From Crocinitomicaceae bacterium (GTDB lineage: Bacteria > Bacteroidota > Bacteroidia > Flavobacteriales_D > Crocinitomicaceae), in NCBI GenBank assembly GCA_014762645.1, contig JABURP010000043.1, positions 1 through 35,502 of the forward strand: a DNA stretch of 35,502 nt, in the 5' to 3' direction. The notes under the pieces are model-generated. The model ran no database searches. It worked only from the letters and a program-made list of their open reading frames with translations, and was not told the DNA's origin. How positions within the stretch are numbered: position 1 is the first letter of the stretch; every line of letters starts with the position of its first letter. Position numbers and translations under genes: made by a program. This document shows positions 7,018 through 28,593 of the stretch, in pieces.

Positions 7018-9612
7018 CTATAGAACTATTTTATCCAGTTCTTTCAGGTATGTATTGCCAACATCAATTTTTAGATCGTTGACAATCACGTACTTCTTGC
7101 CTTTTTCCTGGATTTTATCTATGCGAATGATGAAAGAACGCTTTACACGAATAAATTCCAGTGGATCAGGAACCAGATCCAGAAAATTGCCAATTTTTTC
7201 TCTGACAATATGCTTTTGATCCGTGGTAACAATTTCTATATAGTTTCCATCTGCTTTGACGTAACAAATAGTGGACGTATCAATTTTAATTTCTTTCCCG
7301 GCTTCAGATATGGTTAGGTATTGTTTATCATTTCGTAGCCTTTTCATGATCTGCCTTAGAATTTCCCGGAGAATGTCAGCATTATAAATTAACACACGGT
7401 ATCTAAAGAAGAGGTAAATTATGAGAGCTACGGAAATCACAATAAGTGTAATAAACCACCACGTACTCCAGTAAGGTGAATAAATAGTAAACGCAAACCT
7501 TTGTTCGCCAGAAGTCCAGGAGTCATTCTCCCCTTTAACTTGCATGATAAACTCATAGTTTCCCGGGCTAAGTTCTGTGTAAACGACATCATTATTGAAC
7601 GTGTAATTCCATCTATCTTCAAGCCCCTTTAACCTGTATCTAAATTTCAATTCTTGTGCTTCTAAAAATGAAACAGCTGAAAATTCAAACGACAAGCGAT
7701 TTTGATCGTATGCTAATTCCCTGGCATCTTTCCAGTCAAACTGTGCATCATTTACTTCAATCTTATCAATTTTCGGGAAGTAATTGATCTGCTTTTGTTC
7801 ACGTTCAAAAGCAGATTTGAAGATGCGACATACGCCGTCCCGGGTTCCGACCCAAATTTTATCTCCGACAATTTCAATATCGGTTATTTCATTGCTTTTT
7901 AAACCGTCATCCACGCTTAAAGACTGTACCTTGAATTTATTTTGACTGAACAATAGTCGGTCAAGTCCTGCATTGGTGCATACCCACAACGTTGAATCAT
8001 TTTCTACATAAAAGTTGGAAATAAAATTACTGGATAGGCCATTTGACGTGGTCAGTTGAAGTACATCCTTTTCATTATAACAAAAAATGCCCTTTCCTCT
8101 GGAGCCTGCTACCAGGTAATCTTTAAAAACAGTAAGCGCATCTATCCTATTATTTAATTCATTGTGTTTTTTATCGGCTGGAACCAAATCACCATTCTGT
8201 ACTTTGCTTAACCCGGCAATGGTTCCAAAATAACTTGTGCCATGATAGTTTGCATTACACGTAACGCGCATATTATTAGAAATTCGCGATTTCTTCCCAT
8301 CTGGCGGAAGGCATAGATATATGCCACTTTGATACCAGTTAACAATTGAATCGCCATTTACGGTTTCATAAACGCGAAACCCTAAGCTGGTTCCCAGATC
8401 AACCTTATCTTTTGTTTCGGTATTGAACAAATATTCTTCTGAACAGTAATACATTCTGTCTCGGTTGTCATCATAATAAAAGTAGGCTGATAGGTATGAC
8501 CGCTCCTTTACTTCAGTAAAAGTTGTGTCTTTCGAAATTCTCTTTATCCGGCCATCTTCATAACCAATCCAAAGAGAGTTTCCATCCCACGATAGGTCAG
8601 ATACACTGACAAAATTATTGTCTTTATCTACGTTTTGAACGTTGAGGTTATTGAGATGATAAACACCATCTGATTGTGTAGCTACCCAGTAATTCTTCTC
8701 GTGATCAATAAATACATCTGTCACTTCATGCCTTGGAAATGCTCTGAATTGAATGTTACCCAGTTTATCAAAGAAATAGGTTCCATGTGTCCGTGTTGAC
8801 ACCCAAAATTGTTCTTCATTTAACTTTCTAAGTTTTGAGGTTTTGGCGTCAAGCGGTATAGTTGTTATGCTTCCGGTTTCATGGTTAAATGCAGTAATAT
8901 TTTTGTGGTAGGAAATGTAAGTTGTTTGAATATCCTGATAAGTGATAGCTTCAGTTAAACCATACTTTCCCCAGCTTTCCTGTAGTATTGGGACAGATAT
9001 ATATTTTAAACCAGGAGGGATTTTAATAAGCGAATCTTTCACACAGCTATAGGTCAGGGCATATTCAGGGGATTGACTCCAGCACCGGATTATCTCCGTT
9101 TGTTGCTCATGCATGCGGTGAATTTGTTTATCTACATGGCCCTGCTTATCTATTTTAATGTACCCATGCTTGTGAACAAATGTGAAATAGAAATTTTCCT
9201 GATCATCTACGAACATATTACTCATAATCCACTTTGCAGGTAAAGCACGTAAGCTATCGTTCCACTTAAAAGGAGTAAACTGGTGTTCGTTCGGATCTAA
9301 TCTGAAAATGGAATTATTAAAAGTCGTACACCATATACGGCCTTGCTGATCTTCATGAAACCTGAAAATGGTGTTATCTGTTAAGCCATCCTTTGTACTG
9401 TAGTGGTAGAATTTGTCACCATCATATTCATTGATTCCATAATCAGTGGCCAGCCATAAGTGTCCGTTTTTATCCTGAAAGACATCATAGACTTCTGAGC
9501 TTGAAAGTCCGTTGGAGGTACCATATTTATGGTGATGAGAAAGCTGAGCGGAACATACAACCGTTGAGAAGAATAGGATGCTGCACAGATATTTTAGCAA
9601 GACTTGTCTCAA
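7018..9612 (-). CDS. Membrane one-component regulator: beta-propeller, Y_Y_Y, TM and LytTR
   Basis: This 864-residue protein has a signal peptide (about residues 1-22). A long periplasmic region follows, made of two-component-regulator-type propeller blades (SSSEVYDVFQDKNGHLWLATDYGINEYDG and many NLWIG-, WVGT- or WVCT-like repeats). Then come a Y_Y_Y domain (about 620-710, containing LEDRWNYT and LSPGNYEF), one TM helix (about 718-738), a short basic coiled linker, and a C-terminal LytTR DNA-binding domain (about 766-864, with CYVKADGNYIEIVTTD, FIRVKRSFIIRIDKI and GNTYLKEL). There is no histidine kinase or receiver domain, so sensing outside is joined directly to DNA binding inside. The ligand and target genes are unknown. 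The gene is monocistronic. Confidence 0.93.
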   Translation of the reverse strand: MRQVLLKYLCSILFFSTVVCSAQLSHHHKYGTSNGLSSSEVYDVFQDKNGHLWLATDYGINEYDGDKFYHYSTKDGLTDNTIFRFHEDQQGRIWCTTFNNSIFRLDPNEHQFTPFKWNDSLRALPAKWIMSNMFVDDQENFYFTFVHKHGYIKIDKQGHVDKQIHRMHEQQTEIIRCWSQSPEYALTYSCVKDSLIKIPPGLKYISVPILQESWGKYGLTEAITYQDIQTTYISYHKNITAFNHETGSITTIPLDAKTSKLRKLNEEQFWVSTRTHGTYFFDKLGNIQFRAFPRHEVTDVFIDHEKNYWVATQSDGVYHLNNLNVQNVDKDNNFVSVSDLSWDGNSLWIGYEDGRIKRISKDTTFTEVKERSYLSAYFYYDDNRDRMYYCSEEYLFNTETKDKVDLGTSLGFRVYETVNGDSIVNWYQSGIYLCLPPDGKKSRISNNMRVTCNANYHGTSYFGTIAGLSKVQNGDLVPADKKHNELNNRIDALTVFKDYLVAGSRGKGIFCYNEKDVLQLTTSNGLSSNFISNFYVENDSTLWVCTNAGLDRLLFSQNKFKVQSLSVDDGLKSNEITDIEIVGDKIWVGTRDGVCRIFKSAFEREQKQINYFPKIDKIEVNDAQFDWKDARELAYDQNRLSFEFSAVSFLEAQELKFRYRLKGLEDRWNYTFNNDVVYTELSPGNYEFIMQVKGENDSWTSGEQRFAFTIYSPYWSTWWFITLIVISVALIIYLFFRYRVLIYNADILREILRQIMKRLRNDKQYLTISEAGKEIKIDTSTICYVKADGNYIEIVTTDQKHIVREKIGNFLDLVPDPLEFIRVKRSFIIRIDKIQEKGKKYVIVNDLKIDVGNTYLKELDKIVL

Positions 9613-12685: not shown

Positions 12686-13390
12686 ATGAAAGATCGAAAG
12701 ACCTTTAAAAAATCTATTGTACTATTTAGTTTGACTTTTGCATTGGGAGTGCTAATCGCTTCGTGTAATAATGAAAGTTGTACAGATGGTGTGAAGAATC
12801 AGGATGAAACGGGTATTGACTGCGGTGGCGTGTGTCCAGCATGTGAAACCTGCTCGGATGGTATCCAAAATCAAAATGAAACAGGTGTAGATTGCGGAGG
12901 AGTATGTAATGCATGCCCTACTTGCTCAGATGGTATCCAAAACCAGGGAGAAACGGGTATTGATTGCGGCGGGCCTTGCTCACCATGTTCAACACCGCTT
13001 TGCAGCAATGACCAATTTGGCGCAACCGTTAATGGTACTGCTTATACCGCATCATATATACAAACCAATTACCAATTGGGTAATTTGGTAATTTCTGGTT
13101 CAAATTTATCAACGCACAGCATCAACTTACAGGTTGATACCGCCTGGGTAGCTGGTAGCTACAATATCTCAGGAAGCTTTGGAACATCCACAACTGCTGG
13201 TGGTCAATATTCTTACTTGCCTGGTGGACCGGACCTGTATGAAGCAACCACAGGAACTTTAGTAATACTTGAAAATGACAAAACCGGAGGAGCTATGTCA
13301 GCAACTTTTTCATTTGATGGGAATTTGATTTCCGGAGGTGGATCAGGTACTGCCAGCGTAACAAACGGATCATTTTGTGTGAGTTACTAA
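12686..13390 (+). CDS. Lipoprotein with three Cys-rich 24-residue repeats
   Basis: This 234-residue protein has an SPII signal; the hydrophobic stretch ends at IASC, with Cys27 as the lipidated residue. Three tandem 24-residue repeats follow (nucleotides 12779-12850, 12851-12922 and 12923-12994), each reading close to CSDGIQNQNETGVDCGGVC. Each unit has four Cys in a C..DCGG.C..C pattern, so they are probably disulphide-stabilised. The same repeat is found in other Bacteroidota and myxobacterial surface proteins, often as a spacer or stalk. The C-terminal half is a beta-rich domain of about 130 residues (FGATVNGTAYTASYIQ to SVTNGSFCVSY) similar in style to DUF6252-type lipoproteins; that match is tentative. 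Confidence 0.88.
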   Translation: MKDRKTFKKSIVLFSLTFALGVLIASCNNESCTDGVKNQDETGIDCGGVCPACETCSDGIQNQNETGVDCGGVCNACPTCSDGIQNQGETGIDCGGPCSPCSTPLCSNDQFGATVNGTAYTASYIQTNYQLGNLVISGSNLSTHSINLQVDTAWVAGSYNISGSFGTSTTAGGQYSYLPGGPDLYEATTGTLVILENDKTGGAMSATFSFDGNLISGGGSGTASVTNGSFCVSY

Positions 13391-15541: not shown

Positions 15542-16762
15542 ATGACAAGGCTATTATTTATAAGTGCACTATTTCCCTTAATGGGCATTGCGCAGGGTTA
15601 TCAGGTGAATTTGCAAGGGCAATTCCAGCAAGGTATGGGTGGCGCCGGTACTGCTTTAATGTATGATGCCTCTGCCTTATTCTTTAATCCTGCAGGAGCT
15701 TCATTTGTCAATAGAAGTGAGGTGACAGTGGGCATGACGCCAACTTTTGCCAGCGGAGAATTCACGGAAGACAATACCAATGCTACCGCGAACACAACAT
15801 CTCCGGTAGGCACACCATTTTCTGCCTATGGTTTGTTTCAACTAAAAGATAGCAGTCGTCTTAAATTGGGTTTAGCCGTTTATACACCATTCGGAAGTAC
15901 CGTTGAATTGGAAGAAGGTTGGGTTGGTCGATTTGCGTTAACGCGATTGCAACTAAGAGCCATATTTTTTCAACCAACCGTTAGTTTCAGGATTACGGAT
16001 AAAATTGGAATCGGAGCTGGCTTTGTGTACAGTTATGGTGCCGTCAACCTTCAAAAAGATTTGCCATTACAATTTCAGGATGGGACCTATGCTTCTGCTG
16101 AATTAGCCGGTACCGGACACGGTTTTGGTTACAATGTAGGACTGTATTTTGAACCGATAAAATCCCTCAGCTTTGGATTGACGTATCGTTCACAAGTGAA
16201 TATGGCTATCTCTGATGGAACAGCAACGTTTACAGTTCCCAGCTCATTGGAAGAAAAATTTCCGTCAGGAACCTTTGCGTCTTCTTTACCCTTACCGCAG
16301 GTCTTGACATTTGGCGTTGGTTTTAAACCTACGGATCAACTCGGTATTGCATTAGATGTGAACTATGTGGGTTGGAACGCCTACGACACCCTGGCGTTTG
16401 ATTATGCAACTAATACGGAATCGTTAGAAGATACCAAATCAGCCAGAAAGTATGAAAATGCGCTTGCATTTAGATTAGGCGGATACTATAATGTCACAAC
16501 AGATCTTTCAATTCGGCTGGGACTGGCCTATGCCATGACACCCGTTCAAGATGGTTATGTGACACCTGAAACGCCTGATGCCAACCGCATCAACTATACA
16601 GCCGGACTGGGATACACCTTGGGTGAGAAATTTCAATTGGACTTTTCCATACTCTATACACAAGTAAAACGTGAAGACAGCAATTTAGAAACAGGATTGA
16701 GCGGGAAATTTAAAACACAAGTGATAGCCCCGGGATTATCCGTAACTTACAATCTCTATTAA
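15542..16762 (+). CDS. fadL-like: OmpP1/FadL/TodX-family outer-membrane transporter
   Basis: This 406-residue protein has a signal peptide (about residues 1-18, ending GIAQG). The start of the mature chain is the FadL hallmark (QGMGGAGTALMYDASALFFNPAGASF), and a 14-strand barrel follows (for example GIGAGFVYSYGAVNL, VGLYFEPIKSLSFGLTYRSQVNM, LGIALDVNYVGWNAYD and the final APGLSVTYNLY). FadL-type porins admit long-chain fatty acids or other hydrophobic compounds through the barrel wall. The next gene begins 1 nt after the stop codon, so this is the first gene of a three-gene operon. The substrate is unknown, and hydrophobic compounds are only a family-based guess. Confidence 0.95.
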   Translation: MTRLLFISALFPLMGIAQGYQVNLQGQFQQGMGGAGTALMYDASALFFNPAGASFVNRSEVTVGMTPTFASGEFTEDNTNATANTTSPVGTPFSAYGLFQLKDSSRLKLGLAVYTPFGSTVELEEGWVGRFALTRLQLRAIFFQPTVSFRITDKIGIGAGFVYSYGAVNLQKDLPLQFQDGTYASAELAGTGHGFGYNVGLYFEPIKSLSFGLTYRSQVNMAISDGTATFTVPSSLEEKFPSGTFASSLPLPQVLTFGVGFKPTDQLGIALDVNYVGWNAYDTLAFDYATNTESLEDTKSARKYENALAFRLGGYYNVTTDLSIRLGLAYAMTPVQDGYVTPETPDANRINYTAGLGYTLGEKFQLDFSILYTQVKREDSNLETGLSGKFKTQVIAPGLSVTYNLY

Positions 16763-16763
16763 A

Positions 16764-18098
16764 ATGAAAAGCGCAGTTACATATCTCTTTTTGATTGGGT
16801 TGGTGCTCGTTGCTTGCAAAAAAGAACCCGTTGAATTAGACCTAGGGACAGTTGACGCCAGTCGCTATGTGGCAATTGGTACAGACGCAACTGCAGGTTA
16901 TTCAGATGATGCACTGCATTATGACGGACAAATCAGCAGCTATGCAAATATTTTGGCCACGCAATTGAGCGCAACGGACGAGGTCGATTTTAATCAGCCT
17001 TTGTTGAGTGAAAATTCTGTGGGAATCAACCTGAACAATGACGCTAAACTCGTTTTGGATCACAAAACAGATTGCAAAGACACCGTTTCTCTCTCACCAG
17101 TGAGAATTGCTTCACAGGGTGATATAGCCGCTTTTTCACAAAACACGTATTCTTCAGCACCCTTTGATAATTTAGGAGTGCCCGGTTTAAGCTTTCTGGA
17201 TGTGGCAACAGTGGGATATGGCAATTCTTCATTAGGAGCAGGAAACTACAATCCGTATTTCACGCGCATGACTTCTTCTGAAACCAACGGATCAATTTTA
17301 GGTGATGCTTTAGCACGCAATCCAACATTTTTCACTGTGATGTTAGGAGATGCAGACATTATGGATTACGCAACATCCGGCGGAACTTCAGGTCCAATTC
17401 CTCCATCTTCAGGGGCGGATGGTGTTGGTTTTGACGGAACGCTTAATGCCATGTTGCTGGCACTCACCGGAGCAGGGGCAAAGGGCGCCATTGCTACCAT
17501 TCCAGACGTAACAGACTTTCCATATTTCACTACTATTCCCTATAATGGGCTCACTTTAGATGCAGATAAGGCACAAACAATGAATGATGTCTTTAATCCC
17601 ATTGGCTTGTCATTTGTTGAAGGCGACAATCCCTTTACCATGGAATGTGATTGCAATCAACCTTATAATGTAAGAAAGATGGTGGAGGGTGAATTAATCT
17701 TATTAAGTATTCCGTTGGATTCTGTAAAGTGCAATGGAATGGGGTCTATTGTTCCAATTCCTGATAAATATGTTTTGACCCTGGCGGAAATCAATGAGCT
17801 TCAAACCAAAATAGATGAATACAATGCTGTCATTGTTCAACTGGCACAAACGTATGACCTGGCGGTTGTAGAAAGGGCTGAGCTGATCAGTGAACTGAAA
17901 GAAGGCATCATCTACAATGGCGTGGCTATGAGTACAGAATTTGTCAGTGGTGGTGCTTTTTCATTAGATGGGAGAAATCTCAATCCTAAAGGACAGGCAC
18001 TGTTGGCGAATAAGTTTATCGCAGCTATAAATGCAAAATTTAATGCTGCTATTCCCTATGCGGATGTAACTAAATACGACGGGATTTTATTCCCTTAA
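16764..18098 (+). CDS. SGNH/GDSL-family lipoprotein lacking its catalytic residues
   Basis: This 444-residue lipoprotein (Cys18 in VLVACKKEP) clearly belongs to the Bacteroidota SGNH/GDSL group that accompanies FadL porins. It has YVAIGTDATAGYSDDALHYDG where the family reads GNSLTAGY..., then NPTFFTVMLGDADIMDYATSGG and DGRNLNPKGQALLANKFI. The catalytic positions are changed. The block I Ser is Asp41 (GTDA), the block III Asn is Ala197 (GDAD for GxND), and the block V His is Asn405 (DGRN for DxxH). Only the Gly of block II (NLGVPG) is kept. It therefore looks like a pseudoenzyme, perhaps one that binds or hands over lipid ligands to the porin. The residue comparison is made from memory of the family. 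Confidence 0.9.
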   Translation: MKSAVTYLFLIGLVLVACKKEPVELDLGTVDASRYVAIGTDATAGYSDDALHYDGQISSYANILATQLSATDEVDFNQPLLSENSVGINLNNDAKLVLDHKTDCKDTVSLSPVRIASQGDIAAFSQNTYSSAPFDNLGVPGLSFLDVATVGYGNSSLGAGNYNPYFTRMTSSETNGSILGDALARNPTFFTVMLGDADIMDYATSGGTSGPIPPSSGADGVGFDGTLNAMLLALTGAGAKGAIATIPDVTDFPYFTTIPYNGLTLDADKAQTMNDVFNPIGLSFVEGDNPFTMECDCNQPYNVRKMVEGELILLSIPLDSVKCNGMGSIVPIPDKYVLTLAEINELQTKIDEYNAVIVQLAQTYDLAVVERAELISELKEGIIYNGVAMSTEFVSGGAFSLDGRNLNPKGQALLANKFIAAINAKFNAAIPYADVTKYDGILFP

Positions 18099-18115: not shown

Positions 18116-19414
18116 ATGAAAAATCAAATTATGAAGAAGATTTACTTGATTACACTGTCATTACTGAGCTTTAGCATGATGGTGTACGGACAAGGATGTA
18201 CTGGTGGTCGCTATGCATCTGATATTTTTACAACAGTGAATATAACTTCTGATGTGAATTTTGGTCAGAACACCAGCTTTACCGGAGGAAATACTGTCCT
18301 GGACATGGATATCTACGAACCGGATGGAGACACAGAAACAGCACGTCCGTTAATTATATGGGCGCATGGTGGAAGCTTCATTGGCGGAACAAAAACTGAC
18401 CCGGATGTTACAGAACTTGCCGACAGATTTGCAAAAAAGGGCTTCGTTTGTGCTTCTATTGATTACCGAACCGGAATGTGGCCGATAGATTCTGTCAATG
18501 CCATTAAAGCTGTTATCAGAGCTGTTCAGGATTTGAGAGCCGCAGTGCGTTTCTTCTACGCAGATGCCGCCAATGCGGATGCGTATAAAATTGACACGAC
18601 GCGCATTTTTATCGGAGGAAGCTCAGCTGGTGCCATTACTGCCTTGCACATGGCTTATCTTGATCAGGAATGTGAAATAGAAGAATTCATATCGCTAAAT
18701 GACTTAAACGCATTGGGTGGATTAGAAGGAACAAGTGGAAACCCCGGATATTCTTCAGATGTTGCCGGAGTTATCAATTTATGTGGCGCACTTGCCAGGT
18801 ATGGATACATTGAAGCGGGTGATCCGCCAGTGGTTTCGTTGCACGGAGATGATGACGGAACCGTTCCTTATGCCAGGGGCGTTGCCAGTGTTTCCGGATT
18901 TGCTGTCATCCATTTAGATGGTAGCCGATTGATAGATGAACAAGCTAATTCAGTGGGTGTTTCAAGCAATTTCTATACACACTACGGAGGAGGCCACGCG
19001 GTTTATTTGAGTTCCTCTGCCTACATGGATACAACCGTAAATTTCGTAAGAGATTTTTTAATTGATCAGTTTGGCTGCACAGAAACACCTTTGCAAGCAC
19101 CCAACACCCCAACCGGAAATGGTAATTTGTATCAACTGTACTACTGCAGTCTGGGAATGGAAGATCAGGCACAGGTAATGGTCAAATCCATTTATCCAAA
19201 TCCTTCCAATGATCAGGTGACAGTAGTTTTTGAAAGTGGAATAGCGTTAAACGAAGTTGCGTTAATTGATCTTTCAGGTAGAACCATTGCCACGTACACA
19301 GTAAATGCATCAACATTAGTTATTCAAAAAAATGATTTAAATGCAGGTGTGTATATACTCAAAACAACAAACGATAAAGGTGAGGTGAGTACCTCTAAAA
19401 TTATATTTCAATAA
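18116..19414 (+). CDS. T9SS-secreted alpha/beta-hydrolase (esterase)
   Basis: This 432-residue protein has a signal peptide (the ATG at 18131 would give a cleaner one: MKKIYLITLSLLSFSMMVYGQ). The esterase core resembles the carboxylesterase/BD-FAE group: oxyanion motif WAHGGSFIGG (82-91), nucleophile elbow IGGSSAGA with Ser170, an acid region HGDDDGTVPYA, and a late His in YGGGHAVY. The C-terminus is a type IX sorting domain (IYPNPSNDQVTVVFESG, ending STSKIIFQ), so it is exported to the cell surface or medium. It follows the porin and SGNH genes by 17 nt, completing a probable ester-handling operon. Its substrate is unknown; polymeric esters or lipids would fit the porin context. Confidence 0.93.
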   Translation: MKNQIMKKIYLITLSLLSFSMMVYGQGCTGGRYASDIFTTVNITSDVNFGQNTSFTGGNTVLDMDIYEPDGDTETARPLIIWAHGGSFIGGTKTDPDVTELADRFAKKGFVCASIDYRTGMWPIDSVNAIKAVIRAVQDLRAAVRFFYADAANADAYKIDTTRIFIGGSSAGAITALHMAYLDQECEIEEFISLNDLNALGGLEGTSGNPGYSSDVAGVINLCGALARYGYIEAGDPPVVSLHGDDDGTVPYARGVASVSGFAVIHLDGSRLIDEQANSVGVSSNFYTHYGGGHAVYLSSSAYMDTTVNFVRDFLIDQFGCTETPLQAPNTPTGNGNLYQLYYCSLGMEDQAQVMVKSIYPNPSNDQVTVVFESGIALNEVALIDLSGRTIATYTVNASTLVIQKNDLNAGVYILKTTNDKGEVSTSKIIFQ

Positions 19415-19437
19415 GGAATAAAATTCTGTTTGATAAG

Positions 19438-19463
19438 GCGCTCAGTTTTCTGGGCGCTTTTTT
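19438..19463 (+). terminator. Rho-independent terminator of the FadL/esterase operon
   Basis: GCGCTCAG (19438-19445) pairs with CTGGGCGC (19450-19457) around TTTT, with one U-G wobble that favours the plus strand. Six T residues follow. It lies 23 nt past the stop codon at 19414. Confidence 0.88.
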
Positions 19464-20377: not shown

Positions 20378-21541
20378 TTAGGAATCTAAATTAGTAGTAT
20401 CAATTAATTGAGGTGGTTTTAGATCCTTAACTCTTTTACCTACATTTTTAACAAATTGCTTGAATGCTTTTTCCAGATCTACCATAGCATCAGTAATTCT
20501 CACAATACTCTCCGGCCAAGTTTCTTCCTCAAAAATGTTGAATTCTTGATCCTCATATTTTATTCTACATGCTCTTTTATTTTCTAGTCTTTCCCATTCT
20601 AGCGACCTGCCGAAAATTTGTTCAATTTCTTTCTTTTTACTCAATAAAAATTCAAATATGAATTCATTTTCATATTGTTCACCGCGATCAATGTAAACTT
20701 CAGCCCTGAAATATTTTTTGGTGGCAGCAAAATTATATCCAACTCCTCTTACTCCAGATCCAGCACCAATCCAGTTGTATTTACCTGCACTAATATTTTG
20801 ATACAAATTTGATTTCTTGTTCATCTCATTGATCACCTTTTGCCAAAATTTAATTCGGACAACGTGGCGATTCTTCATTTCTTCTTTTGAGGCGATATCT
20901 TCTTGAGTTTTTTCAGCCATGCTTATTGAGAATTCCTGAGCCTCTTTTACTGGAAGAATTTGTTCAACATTCAAGAATAATTGATCTTGAAGCGAATAAG
21001 GTGTAACTTGAAAACATTGTACTCTTACACCATAGTTTAGCAACCACATAACCGTAGAAGTAACTTCTTTTCTGAAATTACCTGAAACTAAAATCAACCT
21101 TTGTGTCATTCCTGAATTCAATACTAATTCTTCAACCTCAACACCATCATAAAATTCAGAAATTAAATCTTCTGCTTTCTCATCTGAACCAAACTTTAGA
21201 AGATAGTCTTGAAATATTTTAATGATTTGAGACTTTTTCAAACTCGAGCAATACGAAGCATATTTTAAGCACTGCCAAGTAACATCTTTTCCACTATCGT
21301 CCAATTTGTTCTCAATTATAACTAGATTTCCTTCCTTGTCAAGAGCAAGTAAATCAAGTCTTTCATTCGTGTCATTAAAACCACTAAACTCTTTTTGAAT
21401 AATTAAGAATTCATCACCTAAAGCTGCTGGGTTATCTGCAAGCCATTCTTGTAGATTTTCACGTTCTTTAAATCCAAGATCTGAGAAAGTACGCTTAGCA
21501 ATTTCAATAATTTTATTCTCGTTTTGATTTATTAGGTACAT
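20378..21541 (-). CDS. PD-(D/E)XK nuclease-like protein with DUF4268 domain
   Basis: This is a 387-residue cytosolic protein. The N-terminal part (about 1-160) resembles the NucS/DUF91-type PD-(D/E)XK fold: LQEWLADNPAAL, then Asp63 (ERLDLLALD), the E-x-K motif as Glu77-Asn-Lys79 (VIIENK), and a following VTWQCLKYA helix with Gln90. The C-terminal part (about 228-375; FWQKVINEMNKKSNLYQNIS and YIDRGEQYENEFIFEFLLSKK) fits DUF4268, a domain often found beside type I restriction genes. It is the last gene of the defence operon, starting 18 nt after hsdR. An auxiliary nuclease or regulator of restriction is likely, but unproven. Confidence 0.88.
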   Translation of the reverse strand: MYLINQNENKIIEIAKRTFSDLGFKERENLQEWLADNPAALGDEFLIIQKEFSGFNDTNERLDLLALDKEGNLVIIENKLDDSGKDVTWQCLKYASYCSSLKKSQIIKIFQDYLLKFGSDEKAEDLISEFYDGVEVEELVLNSGMTQRLILVSGNFRKEVTSTVMWLLNYGVRVQCFQVTPYSLQDQLFLNVEQILPVKEAQEFSISMAEKTQEDIASKEEMKNRHVVRIKFWQKVINEMNKKSNLYQNISAGKYNWIGAGSGVRGVGYNFAATKKYFRAEVYIDRGEQYENEFIFEFLLSKKKEIEQIFGRSLEWERLENKRACRIKYEDQEFNIFEEETWPESIVRITDAMVDLEKAFKQFVKNVGKRVKDLKPPQLIDTTNLDS

Positions 21542-21559
21542 ACTATTTTAAATTTTTTA

Positions 21560-24500
21560 TTACCCAACCTCCGCATTTTCATTAATCCTTTTAACTATTT
21601 CAATCACCAACTGTGCTTTAGCATCTTCACCTTTAAATACGCCGAGCAATCCGCCGTCATGTTGTTCATCAAAAGGGGATTTGAAAAGGAGCTTTGGATC
21701 AATGGTTCCATTCTGCGTAAGGAAGTCAATAATCTGCTGAATAAAGGTCATTTGGTCAGCGCTTAATTCACCAGATTGGATGAATTTTGAAAATGCTTCA
21801 TTGGCTGCTTGAACATCTAAACCAATAATACTTCTAACAAAAGCACCTAATGGTTGATCACCATATTCAGCTTTAAAGTCATCACGAGTACCGCGATCTT
21901 CACCGTCAAATAATATCTTTTCTAATTGTTCTAATTCTTGTTCGGTAATTGGTTCATTGGCGAACAGTTTGTGAATGATCAATTGATCTTTATGCTCACG
22001 TATGAATTTCTCCACTCTTTCTCTATAAATACCACCTGTTGGAGGAATGAATGTTGGTTCGTTGACCGTAATTTCAACTTCAGAGTCTTCAATATTGGTG
22101 TAAACAGGCTCAGATGACTCCGCTTCAATAAACTTCATTAATTGCCCAATATCATTCCTGATTTGCTCCATTTTTCTTTGCGACAACTGCTTGTAGAAAT
22201 CAGGATTTTTCATTTGCTCAATCAATTTCTTGTTTTGAACAACTTGTGGAATGGTATATTTTTTAGATAGGATGTTCGCAATTGTTAGCAAACGATCCTG
22301 GTATCCTTTTTTAGAATCTAATTCCAACAAAGAAGCGATTTGCAATTTAGTCATCAATAAATTGAAGCGTCTTTGTTTTTCTTCAGATTGAAAAGGAGGT
22401 GGTAACTTACTCAAATGTTCTTCAATGATGTGGATGTCTGAAGTTGATAGATCATTCCATTTTGATCGTTCCTTAAACTGATCGACATATTCTCTGGCCA
22501 TTTTTACCTGGAATCGTTCCATATCTAAGTTAACAATAGCCCCGTGTAAAATATCCCTAATTTCTTGAGCCAAGATGATATTGTCATTCAAGCCACTTTC
22601 AACTAACAATTTGCTCAATTGTAATCTTGAGTCAAAAAGCTGCTGTGACAATGGTTTGATAGCATGCCCTTCATAGCCTTTTTCGTGTTCATCAAAAAAA
22701 TCAAAGTTTTGACAAACATCAAATATTAAGAATAATTCTTTGGGTCTGCCTGGACCGTAAACATCCGGACATTGACGTGTTCCTCTACCAATCATTTGCC
22801 AGAATTTGGCATAAGATCGAACCACTTTAAAAAAAACCAAATTCAATACTCTATGCGCATCTATACCTGTATCCATCATATCAACAGAGACAGCTATTTG
22901 TGGAAGTAGTTCTCTATGCTCATCACAAAATGCGTCTATTATGCTTTGTGCATGTGAAACTTTGTTGTGTACAGTTTTGATGAAACCAGAAGGTTGCTCT
23001 GGGTACCTTTTTTCAAAACGCTCAACAATAAATTCAGCATGGTCTTGATTTACCGCAAAAATGATGGTTCGCCCTAGTTTATCACCACCTTCAATCTTCA
23101 GACCATTTTGCATTAATGCGTCCAATACTTTGTCAACAGTATCTGAATTGAAGAGCTTTTTGTTCATGGCAGAAGAATGAATTTCTTCCGGAAACAAACC
23201 AGTGGCTTTATCTTTGAAGGTTTCTTCGTATTTCTTTTTATCTACTTCTGAAAGTTCGGCATACTTAATCCCTTCCCGAATAAACTTCGTTTTGACATCA
23301 ATGTTTTTGTAGGGAACCAAATATTTTGGAACCGCTTCTTCTAAAGGATAAAAGAAGGTTGGGTCATCATTTTCACAATCAAATATTTCGTAGGTGTTAT
23401 GATCAATGGCACTTTTAGGTGTGGCTGTGAGACCCACTTGAATAGCATCAAAGTATTCAAAGATGGCTTGATACTTATTGTAAATAGAACGGTGTGCTTC
23501 ATCCAGAATGATCAAATCGAAATGACCAACGCCAAAATAACGACCCTTTTCATCTTTTACTTTATCTATTTTATTGATCATGGTTTGATAAGTGCTAAAA
23601 ACCACTCTTGCTTCAGCATCTTCTTTTTCTTCAACCAAATTGACAGAGGTTAAACTGCTTAAATTATCATTGAAGCTTCTTTTTGCCTGACGGACCAAGG
23701 GCGTTCTATCTGCTAAAAAAAGAACACGTTTTACCCAACTGTTTTTGAAGAGTAAATCAACCAAAGCAGCAGCTGTTCTGGTTTTTCCTGAACCGGTTGC
23801 CATTACAACCAACATTTTACGTTTGTTTCCTCTTAAACCATCTTTACCATCTACCACCAAATCTTCCATGATTCGTTGAATGGCTTCATGCTGATAAGGA
23901 CGGTTGACGATTTCATTTTTGGGTTTGGTTAATCGCACATCTTGACGTGAGCCTCTTTGCTGAATTAACCATCTCAATTCATCTTTGCTATAAAAACCAT
24001 ATACCCTTCTTGGTGCGGCATAAAAAGTATCATCCCAAATATTGGTGGTATAACCATTGCTGTAAAATATGATAGGACGTTGGTCAAATTCCTTTTCTAG
24101 ACAATCTGCATACAAACTGGCTTGATGTTTCCCTTGTTCAGGGCTCACGGCTGTTTTTTTGGCTTCAACTAAACCAAGTGGTTTACCATTATCATCCCAC
24201 AACACATAATCTACAAAACCATTGCCGTTTGGATTATCAGCCGTAACCGGCATACCTTTTACCGGGCGTTCCAAATCCCTACCTTCAACAAAACTTGTCC
24301 ACCCTGCTTCTTTAAGGTCAACATCTATCAGGTGAACGCGCGTTTCAGCTTCAGAATATTCTCTTTCTTTAGGTAATGCTCTATTAAGTCGTTTTTCTTT
24401 GTTAGCGGTTTTAGCCTTGGTTTCTTTTTCTTTGAATGCTTTAAACGCAGCCTCACTTTTTTGTGCTTTTTCAGCTGTGGCTTTTTGTTCAGCTTTAAGT

Positions 24501-25006
24501 GACGCTAACTCTTTGAGTAATTGTTCTCGTTCTTGATCAAACTCTTGCTGCAGTTTTTGCTTTTCAGCCCTTTCTGCTCCTACTTTCGGGATGAAGGATT
24601 TGTCAAATGCACCGGGTAAATTGATATCTTCTTGACTATAAGCTTTGGCAAACCATTTTAAAAAATCATAGGTATAACGAATAGCCGTCTCCGCATCATT
24701 CTTGTTGAATTTTTTATCTGAATAATGTACCGCATTGTTACCTGCCTTGCGCACATAGTGCATAGCGGTTTCCATATCTGCCGGAATAATGGCCCTGATT
24801 TCTTCTTGCTTCATCAGGTTGAGCAGTTCCGTATTGTATGGGAGGCTGATGTACTCTACTTCATAAATGGTGTGAATGCACTCTTCAATACACATCCTAC
24901 AATACGTAGCCGTTGACTGCGGCTCACTGTATACTCGTTGCTCTGCAAGCTTCATTTTGCTGAACAAGGAGGACCATTCGGTATGTAGGAAGGAGAAGTT
25001 GGACAT
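21560..25006 (-). CDS. hsdR: Type I restriction endonuclease subunit R (HsdR, EcoEI-like)
   Basis: This 1148-residue motor and nuclease subunit translocates DNA towards the complex and cleaves unmodified DNA. It has an N-terminal DUF4145 helical domain (about 1-125) and a Lys/Glu-rich coiled coil (145-205). The PD-(D/E)XK nuclease follows, with Asp266 (FVDYVLWDDNG) and Glu281-Ala-Lys283 (GLVEAKKT). The SF2 helicase has Walker A ATGSGKT (403-409), DEAH (502-505), GLTATPK, and the motif VI region MIGRGTRQCPD. The C-terminal EcoEI-type domain comes last. Domain order and length fit a complete type IB HsdR. It starts 6 nt after the accessory helicase gene, in the same transcript as hsdM and hsdS. 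Confidence 0.97.
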   Translation of the reverse strand: MSNFSFLHTEWSSLFSKMKLAEQRVYSEPQSTATYCRMCIEECIHTIYEVEYISLPYNTELLNLMKQEEIRAIIPADMETAMHYVRKAGNNAVHYSDKKFNKNDAETAIRYTYDFLKWFAKAYSQEDINLPGAFDKSFIPKVGAERAEKQKLQQEFDQEREQLLKELASLKAEQKATAEKAQKSEAAFKAFKEKETKAKTANKEKRLNRALPKEREYSEAETRVHLIDVDLKEAGWTSFVEGRDLERPVKGMPVTADNPNGNGFVDYVLWDDNGKPLGLVEAKKTAVSPEQGKHQASLYADCLEKEFDQRPIIFYSNGYTTNIWDDTFYAAPRRVYGFYSKDELRWLIQQRGSRQDVRLTKPKNEIVNRPYQHEAIQRIMEDLVVDGKDGLRGNKRKMLVVMATGSGKTRTAAALVDLLFKNSWVKRVLFLADRTPLVRQAKRSFNDNLSSLTSVNLVEEKEDAEARVVFSTYQTMINKIDKVKDEKGRYFGVGHFDLIILDEAHRSIYNKYQAIFEYFDAIQVGLTATPKSAIDHNTYEIFDCENDDPTFFYPLEEAVPKYLVPYKNIDVKTKFIREGIKYAELSEVDKKKYEETFKDKATGLFPEEIHSSAMNKKLFNSDTVDKVLDALMQNGLKIEGGDKLGRTIIFAVNQDHAEFIVERFEKRYPEQPSGFIKTVHNKVSHAQSIIDAFCDEHRELLPQIAVSVDMMDTGIDAHRVLNLVFFKVVRSYAKFWQMIGRGTRQCPDVYGPGRPKELFLIFDVCQNFDFFDEHEKGYEGHAIKPLSQQLFDSRLQLSKLLVESGLNDNIILAQEIRDILHGAIVNLDMERFQVKMAREYVDQFKERSKWNDLSTSDIHIIEEHLSKLPPPFQSEEKQRRFNLLMTKLQIASLLELDSKKGYQDRLLTIANILSKKYTIPQVVQNKKLIEQMKNPDFYKQLSQRKMEQIRNDIGQLMKFIEAESSEPVYTNIEDSEVEITVNEPTFIPPTGGIYRERVEKFIREHKDQLIIHKLFANEPITEQELEQLEKILFDGEDRGTRDDFKAEYGDQPLGAFVRSIIGLDVQAANEAFSKFIQSGELSADQMTFIQQIIDFLTQNGTIDPKLLFKSPFDEQHDGGLLGVFKGEDAKAQLVIEIVKRINENAEVG

Positions 25007-25012
25007 AAGTAG

Positions 25013-28000
25013 TTAACACAATATAGTCATTTTGGCTCCAAACTTAGCGGCTTGACTCCATGTAGAATTCAGTAAATATAGCAGTTGAATCGCTCTGGTA
25101 TCCGAGATATTATCTTTATTGATTTTGGTAGAAAAAAGATCTTTATTTAATGCTTGTCCAACCATTATTATGAGTTCTTTAGAAGTATTAGGGTCTCTCA
25201 AGAGTTCATCAATTTCAGTCCAAATTGCAGTGCTGTTTTTTGTGGTCCCATGGATATTATTTGCATCACCAATGTCTTGTATGCTCCATTTACTGTCCCA
25301 GTTTGAAATATTTTTTTCAGGTTTCTTGTCATAAAAAGGTGAGAAAAAACCTAAATTTTTGATGGCTTGTGAACAAACTACATGAAATGTTGAAGCGGAA
25401 ACTTGACGTGGTTGGTGAGCCGCTTTTGCGTGTATTAAACATATCTTTTTTGTTGATTTGTTAATACCAATAAAGTCAGCAATTTCAGCTCCATTGTCAT
25501 CACATACAAAATAGTCATATTGATCCAGAATAGGATTTAGAATAGCATCTCCCAACCCTTTACGAGTGATTTTTCCGAATAAAGAATTGGGATGCCAATT
25601 ATTACCATCAGTTATCAAGGTCTCACTTCCTTTTTCGGAAGTGCACGTGTATAAAGTGTCAGTTTTTGTTATCGTTGTTAAAATATTTAAATATTGACTT
25701 GATTTTCTCCTTGGCTTAATCCAAGCCCCATGAGCGTAAATAATATTTTGACTAGTTGGTACAATTCTGAATCTTTGAAGCTTGTTAATCGTACCTAATA
25801 ATGAGTCTGTCTTCTTTCCATCCTTGATATAATCAAAACTTTGTTCAAATTCTTTGCACGACAGTTTGTATGCACCTTCTTCATACTGTATCTTAATTTC
25901 ATATTCTCTTTCTCCAATTCCCCATTTAAATTTGTTGTCTCTTATCGCAATGCAGAGCTCATTCAAATCTATTTTATTTAAACTAAAGCCACTTTTTGCT
26001 GGATCGAAATGTATGGTGGCTTTAACTTCTCCCAAAATTTCTTGAATATCAATTAGAATATTTCTTGGTTTGGTGTTTCCTGGCTCATCTACAAATTGAG
26101 CATATCTCAAAAAGAAATCAGATTTCATTTTTTCTTCAATATCATCTGAAATTTTCTTTATCCACTTGATGTAAGAATTGTGCGTGAATTTTGGAGCAAC
26201 TTCATCAGTTATTCTACCTCTGGTAAATCCAATATATCTTCGTTGAGTTTGATCTTGAGTAGATTCAATGTACCCAAGGGCATTGGACAATAGATATGCA
26301 TAATCAGTTAAATCTCCTGCAATATTGTTTAAATCAAACGCAGAAATTGTTCTCGTTCTAATACTGTAATCTCCGGTATCAGTATTTTTCAATGATATGG
26401 ATGAAAATCTTTTTGCTGTGTTAAGAAGAGCTTGGAGCTGCAATGGATTTACGAATCTGGTATTAAGTCTAATGGCTTCAAAGGAACTGTTATCTGAAGA
26501 ATAATAAAATACATGTTCCGAAAAAGTTCTTACATGCACAAATGCCAAGGAAAATTCTAAAAAAAGGTCATTTTTTAGGATCGGACTATTTTGAAATTTA
26601 ACGTAAACAATACATAATTCTTTCAACGAATAATGAGCAGCTAAAATTTTATTTTCTTTAATTTCATTTAATTCAAACTGTATTCCTTGAAAGGCTTTAT
26701 GCAAATTGAAATCAGATTTTTTTACTAAGAATTGACAACTGTGTTTAAAGGATAGTTTTGCAAGCAATTCATCTTTATCTAAAGTAGCCCAGTTCTTTAT
26801 TAGCTCTCGAAACTGTTTTTCATAGTAAACTGGAGTCTCAGGCAAATTATCAACATATCTTTCATAAATCCGATTTGGTGAAAATATTTCTTGTTGTTCA
26901 TCAGAAGATAAGTAATCTTCCCATGATTTGCTTGCTTCTGAATCTTTCCTCACAATTACGAAAGCGTCCTGCAATACAGACAAATCAGTGGTTCTAATTA
27001 TTCTGCCTATTTGTTGAATTAAAGACCTAGTATTTCCAAATTCATCATATATGATCAATGCGCAGCAATTTGGTTCGTCAATGCCCTCTACCAGTTTCCA
27101 CTGATGCACTAAAATTTCAATTGCACTCAAGTCTTCAGGAACATTTTTACTCAAATAGTCAATTTGGCTGTTAAAATTTTGGTGAATGCCCAGCACATCC
27201 TCTCCATCATTATTGAGCGTTGTTGCTACCTTACGGACTGTCTGTTCAGTTTCACACCTAATTATGAGCTTTGGGTGCTGAATGTTTTTTGACCGAAAAG
27301 CGCTCCTTTTCGACTTGAAGAAATCAATCCCCTTTTTTAGAAAATCTTGTTTGTTTGAATTAATAACTTTAAAACTGACATTTCGAATAATTTTATCTGA
27401 AAGTGCTGTTTCGTGCTTTAACCAAAAAGTTCTATCATTATCTCTTTCATCAATTACAAATGATTTTAGATCATTTCTATAAGGTGTAGCGGAAAAAAGA
27501 ACTGTAGGTTTAGATAAATTTCGCACCGCATTTCGCCAACTGATTGATGGCTCTCTATGTCCTTCATCAAATATTACAAGTTCGGCTAATTCTTTTATCT
27601 TGTCAAATTCTCTCTTTCTTCTTGGATCATTATAGATCTCATAAATTGAATGAATAGTTGTAACAAATACTACTTTATCTTCAGTTCCTAACTGAGCAAG
27701 GGCTGATTTAATTTTACTAGGATAAACATCAATTATTTTTCTTGTTAAAGTATTTGGATTCACATCTATAACTTGCCAAAATTTCCCTTTAAAATTTTTA
27801 ATCACTTGTTTTCTGAGCGCTTTGGATGGAACAATAACAAGTGTTGATTTAATGTTCTTTCTACTAAAGGCACAGACAGTCATAACACCTGTTTTACCTG
27901 TTCCTGTAGGCATTTTAACTAAGAAAACAGAATCCGTTGTACCTTGATTATACGCTTTATAATAGCTATAAATTTTATTGCAGGCTTCAACTTGATATCC

Positions 28001-28057
28001 AAATAATTTCTGAGAGAATTTATTGTAATGGGCCATATCATATAATACAGCACTCAT
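25013..28057 (-). CDS. SF2 helicase with nuclease-like C-terminal domain, embedded in the hsd operon
   Basis: This 1014-residue protein is not HsdR. The N-terminal SF2 helicase core has GYQVEAC (20-26), Walker A PTGTGKTG (50-57), motif II DEGH (164-167, in place of DEAH), SAT (189-191), motif V VEGIDEPNC (323-331) and QQIGRIIR (348-355). A long middle region (about 400-830) is unrecognised and contains RRYIGFTRGRI. Near the C-terminus, IADFIGI (Asp861), then LIHAKA (His876-Ala-Lys878) and VVCSQAIKNL (Gln897), look like a PD-(D/E)XK-type fold with His in place of the acidic residue. The ATG overlaps the stop codon of the membrane-protein gene by 4 bp, and hsdR follows after 6 nt. I infer an ATP-driven anti-phage effector or sensor working with the membrane protein. 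Confidence 0.93.
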   Translation of the reverse strand: MSAVLYDMAHYNKFSQKLFGYQVEACNKIYSYYKAYNQGTTDSVFLVKMPTGTGKTGVMTVCAFSRKNIKSTLVIVPSKALRKQVIKNFKGKFWQVIDVNPNTLTRKIIDVYPSKIKSALAQLGTEDKVVFVTTIHSIYEIYNDPRRKREFDKIKELAELVIFDEGHREPSISWRNAVRNLSKPTVLFSATPYRNDLKSFVIDERDNDRTFWLKHETALSDKIIRNVSFKVINSNKQDFLKKGIDFFKSKRSAFRSKNIQHPKLIIRCETEQTVRKVATTLNNDGEDVLGIHQNFNSQIDYLSKNVPEDLSAIEILVHQWKLVEGIDEPNCCALIIYDEFGNTRSLIQQIGRIIRTTDLSVLQDAFVIVRKDSEASKSWEDYLSSDEQQEIFSPNRIYERYVDNLPETPVYYEKQFRELIKNWATLDKDELLAKLSFKHSCQFLVKKSDFNLHKAFQGIQFELNEIKENKILAAHYSLKELCIVYVKFQNSPILKNDLFLEFSLAFVHVRTFSEHVFYYSSDNSSFEAIRLNTRFVNPLQLQALLNTAKRFSSISLKNTDTGDYSIRTRTISAFDLNNIAGDLTDYAYLLSNALGYIESTQDQTQRRYIGFTRGRITDEVAPKFTHNSYIKWIKKISDDIEEKMKSDFFLRYAQFVDEPGNTKPRNILIDIQEILGEVKATIHFDPAKSGFSLNKIDLNELCIAIRDNKFKWGIGEREYEIKIQYEEGAYKLSCKEFEQSFDYIKDGKKTDSLLGTINKLQRFRIVPTSQNIIYAHGAWIKPRRKSSQYLNILTTITKTDTLYTCTSEKGSETLITDGNNWHPNSLFGKITRKGLGDAILNPILDQYDYFVCDDNGAEIADFIGINKSTKKICLIHAKAAHQPRQVSASTFHVVCSQAIKNLGFFSPFYDKKPEKNISNWDSKWSIQDIGDANNIHGTTKNSTAIWTEIDELLRDPNTSKELIIMVGQALNKDLFSTKINKDNISDTRAIQLLYLLNSTWSQAAKFGAKMTILC

Positions 28058-28593
28058 TTTTTATCGTTTTTTAAATCATTGATTTTCTGAATAAGCTCAA
28101 CTCTTCTCCGTTTCAATCTCTTCAACTCTTCCCAAATATGAATGTGTTTTCTTCGGAGATAATTAATTACACTTGATTTAATGCTTTCTGTAAATTTTCC
28201 AATACTACCATATAAAATATAAGCTGTAAATCCATACAGTAGCAGTGCCGCAGAATTGATATTAAGTTGATTTCCAAGATTGAATTTCCAATCGTAATAG
28301 CACAGGTAGAATATATTTCCGCATATAAACATTAATCCAACTAAAATTCGTGCACCCAAAAAAAACTTCTTTTCTCTTCCTTCAAGTTTTTCACGTTGTG
28401 GTTCAAGTTCATTTATTTGAGAATTCACTTCCTCAAGTTCTTTTTCCAAATCCGCTAAAGGATCTATCTCAGGTTCTTCTATCTCATCTTTCTTCTTGTA
28501 TTCTGAGTATAGGATCCCAACCGTAATTATGATTAATAGAATCGCAACAACGATAATGATAAAGTTTACAATATCTCGCGACTTTTTACTCAC
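28054..28593 (-). CDS. Three-TM coiled-coil membrane protein between hsdS and the helicase
   Basis: This 179-residue protein starts with GTG (28591-28593), overlapping the hsdS stop codon by 4 bp, and its own stop overlaps the helicase start by 4 bp. TM1 is at about 10-29. A Glu/Lys-rich coiled coil follows at 37-75 (DPLADLEKELEEVNSQINELEPQREKL), then TM2 (77-99), TM3 (112-131) and a strongly basic C-terminal helix (148-176). The double overlap implies tight stoichiometric co-expression. The basic C-terminal helix could bind nucleic acid or the helicase. A membrane-associated effector or anchor for the helicase is the most natural guess. No family was recognised. Confidence 0.88.
   Translation of the reverse strand: MSKKSRDIVNFIIIVVAILLIIITVGILYSEYKKKDEIEEPEIDPLADLEKELEEVNSQINELEPQREKLEGREKKFFLGARILVGLMFICGNIFYLCYYDWKFNLGNQLNINSAALLLYGFTAYILYGSIGKFTESIKSSVINYLRRKHIHIWEELKRLKRRRVELIQKINDLKNDKK

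Follow-up and report, generated by a model that had tools for sequence, protein, structure and literature searches.

The gene at 16764-18098 on the forward strand of the window (the whole stretch of 35,502 nucleotides analysed here) encodes a lipoprotein of 444 amino acids that has the fold of SGNH/GDSL esterases but lacks their catalytic Ser, Asn, and His. It lies in an operon-like unit between the genes for a FadL-type outer-membrane channel and an exported alpha/beta-hydrolase. The lipoprotein probably serves the channel as a subunit that binds ligand or plays some other accessory part, with ester cleavage carried out by the hydrolase.

Gene organization

The genome, of 4.23 Mb and 98.99% complete, contains the window as contig C68. 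Three genes follow one another on its forward strand: a FadL-type channel (15542-16762, 406 amino acids), the SGNH-like lipoprotein, and an alpha/beta-hydrolase of the BD-FAE family with a type IX secretion system (T9SS) type A sorting tail (18116-19414). A single base separates the stop codon of the FadL gene from the SGNH open reading frame, and 17 bases lie between the SGNH and hydrolase genes. A terminator-like hairpin is located 20 bases 3' of the hydrolase gene (19435-19460, forward strand); the region contains three hairpins compared with a mean of 3.6 in shuffled sequences, which is not an excess, and it is location that speaks for this one. A promoter scan of the region gave no signal above shuffles. 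The three genes form a single operon-like unit.

The upstream protein matches the FadL family PF03349 (E 8.3e-52; 176.5 bits against a cut-off of 29.7), and its AF2 model (pLDDT 87.0) matches Escherichia coli FadL with Z scores of 47.0-47.3 over 379 aligned residues at 2.2 A. Chains of the BAM complex taken to be BamG match the same model at Z 33.1-34.5. In NCBIfam, the E. coli-type FadL equivalog ranks first (62.5 bits, below its cut-off of 585) and BamG second (61.6 bits, below its cut-off of 250). There is no N-terminal extension beyond FadL, as residue 20 of the model aligns with residue 3 of mature FadL; the signal peptide, judged by eye, ends at about residue 18-19. On the model, the protein resembles FadL of the transporter type rather than BamG. 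Identity of the gene pair with BamG/BamH was considered and is rejected because of score, fold distance, and the missing N-terminal extension.

The third gene has matches to PF20434 (E 3.6e-26), to PF18962 (E 6.2e-12; 46.1 bits, cut-off 27), and to the T9SS type A sorting model TIGR04183 (48.4 bits, cut-off 23). Its product contains HGG at residues 84-86 and the triad Ser170-Asp247-His294. These residues are nearly universal among 88 hydrolase sequences (Ser in 86/87, Asp in 87/87, and His in 87/87 aligned letters, one row being gapped; His of HGG in 88/88), and a simple C-terminal tail motif is present in 84 of the 88. Its sequence relatives in the PDB comprise esterases and lipases whose specificities vary widely. 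The original prediction had this gene supplying the true esterase, with which the intact triad is consistent.

Loss of catalytic residues in the SGNH-fold lipoprotein

The lipobox of the second gene product (LVLVA-C-KKEPVE) places the lipidated residue at Cys18 (codon 16815-16817, forward strand), in a column that is invariant among 53 aligned rows including the window. Where intact relatives have GNSLT, GxND, and DGxH, the window protein has G39-T-D-A-T in block I (16878-16892), G195-D-A-D in block III (17346-17357), and D402-G-R-N in block V (17967-17978), all on the forward strand. The replacement of these blocks by GTDA, GDAD, and DGRN, first read from the sequence alone, is confirmed by the alignment as Ser41 to Asp, the oxyanion Asn197 to Ala, and His405 to Asn. 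Asp198 of block III and Asp402 of block V are retained, and the conserved Gly at 138/141 presumably represents block II of the SGNH/GDSL esterases.

The AF2 model of the protein (pLDDT 93.7, pTM 0.90) matches SGNH structures in the PDB with Z scores of up to 18.6. SGNH proteins are also ranked highest by Foldseek, with a best E value of 1.6e-3 (probability 1.00) and none under 0.001. With a profile of 53 sequences, the window included, PDB chains of SGNH/GDSL proteins are found at a best E value of 8.8e-6; a search of Pfam and NCBIfam with the window protein alone returned no GDSL match up to an E value of 1. Because profile and fold both lead to SGNH proteins, the replaced residues are not an alignment slip. 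Profile and fold support the block assignment, and careful alignment did not place the catalytic residues elsewhere in the protein.

Among four genomes of the genus that were examined, three have the gene (G000, G002, and G003), with DAN, DAN, and NSN at positions 41/197/405, respectively. The losses are therefore common to both congeners that have the gene (DAN, NSN), and this sharing, together with the rise in entropy at the three positions described below, indicates that the loss is not noise. The fourth genome, G001, has no SGNH match, no FadL at an E value of 1e-50, and no hydrolase at 1e-75; weaker relatives of the hydrolase are present (best E 3.6e-60), with no FadL beside the one locus fetched. 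The suggested search for a second, intact SGNH paralogue in the genome had a divided outcome. A close one was not found, as the window protein matches only itself below an E value of 0.01 and the family profile gives a single match at 1e-10. A distant SGNH lipoprotein with motifs GDSY, GVNN, and DGLH does exist (contig C22, 51075-51608), the only match in the genome to PF13472, the one of the two large GDSL families (PF13472 and PF00657) that this search covered.

In the SGNH lipase described in PMC10779480, Ala substitutions at Ser, Asn, and His each abolished activity. The window protein contains just two His residues (52 and 100), neither of them invariant in the clade of 11 rows to which the window belongs, which argues that the Ser-His pair has not relocated. 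From these residues we infer that the protein is a pseudoenzyme, as had been proposed; the loss of Ser, Asn, and His, the variability of their sites, and the absence of any His conserved throughout the 11 rows of the window clade all support that proposal.

Distribution and linkage to FadL and the hydrolase

At an E value of 1e-20, the family profile matches 113 of the 296 genomes sampled from the Bacteroidota; at 1e-10, it matches 86 of the 200 genomes from the window's own family. The table of loci comprises 189 distinct sequences after removal of 25 duplicate rows. Its 80 contig loci are those with the highest similarity among at least 567 confirmed, and proportions among them are not population estimates; from the phylum sample, 80 of the 112 non-self genomes with a match were fetched, mostly the better-scoring ones. 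The sample is thus weighted toward relatives of the window, and its counts are not population frequencies. FadL lies directly upstream of the SGNH gene in 41 of 84 rows at the 80 phylum-sample loci, and intact FadL-SGNH pairs are found across the Bacteroidota, which bears out the expectation that these genes adjoin in many members of the phylum. At four loci (L136, L157, L166, and L183), FadL-linked and FadL-free SGNH lipoprotein genes occur a few kilobases apart, both with Ser, Asn, and His.

Counting only FadL-linked rows with at least 1000 bases downstream (rows lacking a 1000-base flank were set apart), 69 have a degenerate SGNH gene and the hydrolase, one is degenerate without the hydrolase (L012), five are intact with it, and 53 are intact without it. 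The SGNH gene is hence degenerate in 69/74 operons with the hydrolase versus 1/54 pairs without, a difference that lies largely within one clade. Four FadL-linked rows have too little downstream sequence for the hydrolase to be called. Since five hydrolase-bearing operons have an intact SGNH gene, presence of the hydrolase is not sufficient for the loss. Another 17 degenerate rows have no recognised FadL (12 with upstream room and five at contig edges), and nine of these belong to a second degenerate clade, group 2, described below. L088 is classed as lacking FadL solely because its frame overlap with FadL exceeds the set limit. Degenerate rows with no adjoining hydrolase are L012, L160, L172, L176, and part of group 2.

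Co-occurrence was assessed in the 200 family genomes at thresholds that differ among the genes (E values of 1e-10 for SGNH, 1e-50 for FadL, and 1e-75 for the hydrolase). FadL was found in 83 genomes, SGNH in 86, and both in 81, i.e., in 81 of the 88 genomes that have either. The seven mismatches are five genomes with SGNH only (G005, G023, G025, G033, and G120) and two with FadL only (G018 and G167). Three of them are incomplete (G023, 59%; G033, 84%; G018, 79%); G167 has a FadL fragment located at a contig edge, the hydrolase of G005 likewise lies at a contig edge, and the SGNH match in G120 is partial. The hydrolase is present in 104 of the 200 genomes, 24 of which lack the SGNH gene and 23 both SGNH and FadL. 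Twenty of these 24 loci were fetched, and none (0/20) has FadL or SGNH in the stretch, although at L252 and L257 the contig ends within 1.6 kb upstream. By these counts, FadL and SGNH are gained and lost together, and the hydrolase can occur without them. Loci L247-L266 (in G024, G076, G087, G114, and others) have the hydrolase without an adjoining FadL or SGNH gene, and several of the genomes concerned are 2.0-2.8 Mb in size.

Recurrent losses within one clade

A phylogenetic tree was constructed, leaving out the block columns, from 132 rows linked to FadL or to the hydrolase, after three rows without block I and two near-identical rows had been dropped. All hydrolase-bearing rows fall within one clade of 76 rows (SH-aLRT 82), including two that are cut by contig ends. 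The five intact rows with a hydrolase form a nested clade (98), and seven intact rows branch just outside the hydrolase clade, five of which have room downstream and no hydrolase. The minimum number of losses over the whole tree is 11 (Fitch) or 19 (Dollo) for Ser, 5 or 6 for Asn, and 9 by either count for His, on a quick tree in which 37 of 129 inner branches are drawn open; one Ser loss and one His loss, both in L012, lie outside the clade. An independent-pairs test of hydrolase presence against loss found three pairs only (p = 1) and had no power. Phylogenetically, the association between hydrolase and loss amounts to about one event, with recurrent losses inside a single clade.

Group 2 (L218, L220, L222, and L227; L213-L215, L217, L219, and L221) is a second clade of degenerate SGNH proteins, with motifs such as GMED and DGLHPNQKG. 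Its SGNH gene is not located between FadL and hydrolase genes. In L218, L220, L222, and L227, a FadL-hydrolase pair on the opposite strand adjoins the SGNH gene or lies one gene off; in G014, G045, and G060 the pair is elsewhere in the genome, G005 has the hydrolase at a contig edge, and G033 and G054 have no hydrolase at an E value of 1e-20. In all, 7 of 10 group 2 genomes examined have the FadL-hydrolase pair; the hydrolase may have come to lie beside FadL a single time, ahead of the two clades, or on two occasions.

Fate of the catalytic sites across relatives

To follow the catalytic positions, column entropies over 400 columns were compared between 60 intact FadL-linked rows and 73 degenerate rows (71 hydrolase-linked and two cut by contig ends). 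Entropy rises from 0 to 2.38 bits at column 41, from 0 to 2.30 at column 197, and from 0 to 1.91 at column 405, ranking 1, 2, and 4 among the 400; the intact set has zero entropy at these columns by definition, and the weight of the comparison rests on the degenerate set. Other large rises are found at column 42 (0.81 to 3.05 bits) and column 40 (0 to 1.77 bits). Within the 43 columns that have less than 0.6 bits in the intact set, entropy in the degenerate set is highest at 41 and 197, followed by 370 (1.98) and then 405. The degenerate set is less diverse overall (mean entropy of 1.53 versus 2.12 bits in the intact set), and it has many fixed columns away from the active site that vary in the more diverse intact set.

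Residues at column 41 of the degenerate set include G, S, A, N, I, D, and T, and those at column 197 include E, D, N, S, Q, H, and A. Given this free variation across relatives, the catalytic site looks released rather than re-tooled. Gly41 is present in 28/73 and Glu197 in 35/73 degenerate rows, and the lineages that share these residues may have put the site to some new use of their own. Ser41 persists in 20/73 and His405 in 31/73, so that some of these proteins may not be fully dead. Asp402 is retained in every row (73/73 degenerate, 60/60 intact) and Asp198 in 62/73 of the degenerate ones. The window clade has lost all three catalytic residues in 9 of its 11 rows, L027 and L028 having retained Ser; other lineages have lost one, two, or all three, with only Asn missing in SQH and SEH rows and only His in SNN rows. 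L036, the operon of the cultured strain Fluviicola chungangensis MAH-3, encodes an SEH protein. Cys104 and Cys323 are invariant in 73/73 degenerate rows and could form a disulphide.

The SGNH gene is constrained, yet it is evolving faster than both of its neighbours, and it is not obviously dying. Between the window and four relatives, dN is 0.29-0.39 for the SGNH gene and 0.18-0.33 for the FadL and hydrolase genes. The dS of the SGNH gene is saturated or, where computable, 1.8-3.0, with dN well below it; dS (NG86) is saturated or uncomputable for most pairs, which makes any dN/dS rough only. Within the window clade, 99 columns are invariant. The only internal stop among the matches listed is in G025, in a remnant of 47 residues.

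Membrane side of the lipoprotein

Lipoproteins exposed on the surface of Bacteroidota have an acidic export signal after the lipidated Cys, given as C-X-K-(D/E)2 in PMC5080379; such a signal is also described in PMC12578637. In the window sequence, C-KKEPVE, two of the six residues after Cys are acidic, although the stretch does not conform to this pattern. At least two acidic residues in the six after Cys occur in 6 of the 71 degenerate, hydrolase-linked rows in which a lipobox can be recognised, in none of the five intact rows with a hydrolase, and in 34 of 55 intact FadL-linked rows without one; the corresponding counts are 39 of 40 for intact rows without FadL and 12 of 15 for other degenerate rows, group 2 included. 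To our knowledge, the acidic export rule has not been tested within the window's family. In the same genome, SusD proteins begin with C-EEYLET and C-ENMLDE.

Because most of the clade lacks the acidic signal, a surface lid or gate is doubtful, and an acceptor facing the periplasm appears at least as likely. The original prediction of a binding or gating partner of the porin thus holds in part: the partnership agrees with the co-occurrence of FadL and SGNH in genomes (81/88), and the gate on the outside is weakened by the scarcity of the acidic signal (6/71). The stretch after Cys goes from acidic in FadL-free intact proteins (39/40) to C-KPK in the hydrolase-linked clade (48/71 degenerate rows), a shift that may reflect a change of membrane side.

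Possible roles of the lipoprotein

Genome comparison points to a partnership between FadL and the lipoprotein, and the role that we consider probable is that of a non-catalytic ligand-binding or accessory subunit. The lipoprotein, most likely in the outer membrane, retains the SGNH fold and its large inserted region but would be unable to perform serine hydrolysis. Extracellular esters would be cleaved by the exported type IX alpha/beta-hydrolase, and the hydrophobic product would pass via FadL. At the channel, the SGNH-fold lipoprotein would bind the acyl product and either present it on the outer side or take it over on the inner side, so that an acyl compound is handed to or from the channel. 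In evolutionary terms, a FadL-linked active SGNH esterase may have become dispensable once the exported hydrolase was present, with its residues then lost repeatedly and piecemeal. A bolder version, which we put forward tentatively, is that FadL here is a two-component importer in which a dead SGNH esterase became a dedicated ligand-binding lipoprotein, possibly a periplasmic acceptor, after the hydrolase took over catalysis, and that this conversion was repeated many times, residue by residue, within one clade.

Alternatively, the lipoprotein could be a partner of the exported hydrolase rather than of FadL, serving it as anchor, chaperone, or substrate presenter. Catalytic loss does track the hydrolase gene, and the three genes form an operon-like unit; in group 2, where the FadL-hydrolase pair is retained and the SGNH gene lies elsewhere, a three-way relation is conceivable. 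However, the hydrolase occurs without the other two genes in 23 of 200 genomes while FadL and SGNH go together in 81 of 88, and outside the clade SGNH pairs with FadL in the absence of the hydrolase (53 of 58 intact FadL-linked rows with room), which makes this alternative unlikely. Somewhat more doubtful is a protein that is still an enzyme, its chemistry rebuilt on other residues such as a cluster of Asp41, Asp196, Asp198, and Asp402, or on a metal. The retention of Asp402 (73/73) and Asp198 (62/73) would fit such a site, as would the Gly41 and Glu197 common to some sub-lineages. A new active site would be expected to be conserved, however, and columns 41 and 197 hold many residues in the degenerate set; in the 11-row window clade, positions 41, 197, and 405 all vary and no His is invariant.

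It is less probable still that the gene is decaying because the enzyme is superfluous, and is retained for now by its position in the operon. Such decay is consistent with the 23 of 200 family genomes that have the hydrolase without FadL and SGNH, with the remnant in G025, and with the faster change of the SGNH gene relative to its neighbours. Against it, that remnant contains the one internal stop among the matches listed, dN is well under dS where computable, and the 99 invariant columns of the window clade, like the many columns outside the active site that are fixed in the degenerate and variable in the intact set, point to continued constraint. Moreover, FadL without SGNH is limited to G018, which is 79% complete, and G167, with its FadL fragment at a contig edge.

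Relation to known systems

The window protein shares with SGNH/GDSL esterases such as LAE5 (5jd3), Axe2 (3w7v), the thermolabile haemolysin of Vibrio (8h09), and the lipase of Streptomyces rimosus (5mal) a common fold over residues 27-431, the order of the blocks, and the Asp of block V. It differs from them in lacking Ser, the oxyanion Asn, and His, in being twice the length of the small members, and in being a lipoprotein encoded in a FadL operon. The intact FadL-linked SGNH lipoproteins of other Bacteroidota belong to the same family by profile, have a lipobox, and are encoded directly 3' of FadL. These retain Ser, Asn, and His (60 rows) and, unlike the window gene, are mostly without a downstream hydrolase (53 of 58 with room).

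In SusC-SusD and similar importers, a barrel works with a substrate-binding lipoprotein. The folds and substrates of these systems are different from those of the window pair, and it is doubtful that the window lipoprotein lies at the surface. Importers of this SusC-SusD type are also named in PMC12611786 and PMC12578637, which describe the BamG-BamH pair, likewise a FadL homologue with a lipoprotein and a precedent for the FadL barrel as a docking platform. BamG sends an N-terminal extension through its lateral opening, as described there, whereas the window FadL has no extension and begins where FadL does. In the descriptions of BamH in PMC12611786 and PMC12578637, it is a crescent-shaped scaffold and no SGNH fold is mentioned, and no BamH chain appears among the top structure matches listed for the SGNH model. 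The top-ranked results from open-licence PMC literature yielded no description of an SGNH pseudoenzyme beside FadL. BamG-BamH already provides a case of a FadL homologue that has a lipoprotein as partner, and what appears to be new is a putative SGNH-fold pseudoenzyme in such a barrel-lipoprotein pair.

How FadL-type channels acquire hydrophobic substrates, and whether accessory proteins are required for this, has become a timely question since BamG was found to carry a lipoprotein. Across the window's family, the FadL gene is nearly inseparable from what appears to be a catalytically dead esterase, and the catalytic loss tracks a secreted enzyme of the same operon. The conversion of an enzyme to a binding protein could be tested here, as intact forms, such as those of L033 and L098, exist in related species alongside partly lost and fully lost ones; if the proposed role is true, they would make up a natural series leading from active enzymes to proteins that only bind.

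Other features of the window

A locus resembling type I restriction-modification systems occupies 20378-31244 on the reverse strand, with HsdM (29772-31244), HsdS (28590-29771), and HsdR (21560-25006). An extra DEAD/ResIII helicase (25013-28057) is located between HsdS and HsdR, and a DUF4268 protein is encoded at the end of the locus. The reverse-strand gene at 7018-9612 encodes a propeller protein (Reg_prop, Y_Y_Y) with a terminal LytTR DNA-binding domain, which would seem to combine sensor and regulator in one protein. In the translation of 12686-13390 on the forward strand, a putative lipoprotein contains three near-identical cysteine-rich repeats, CSDGIQNQxETGxDCGG.
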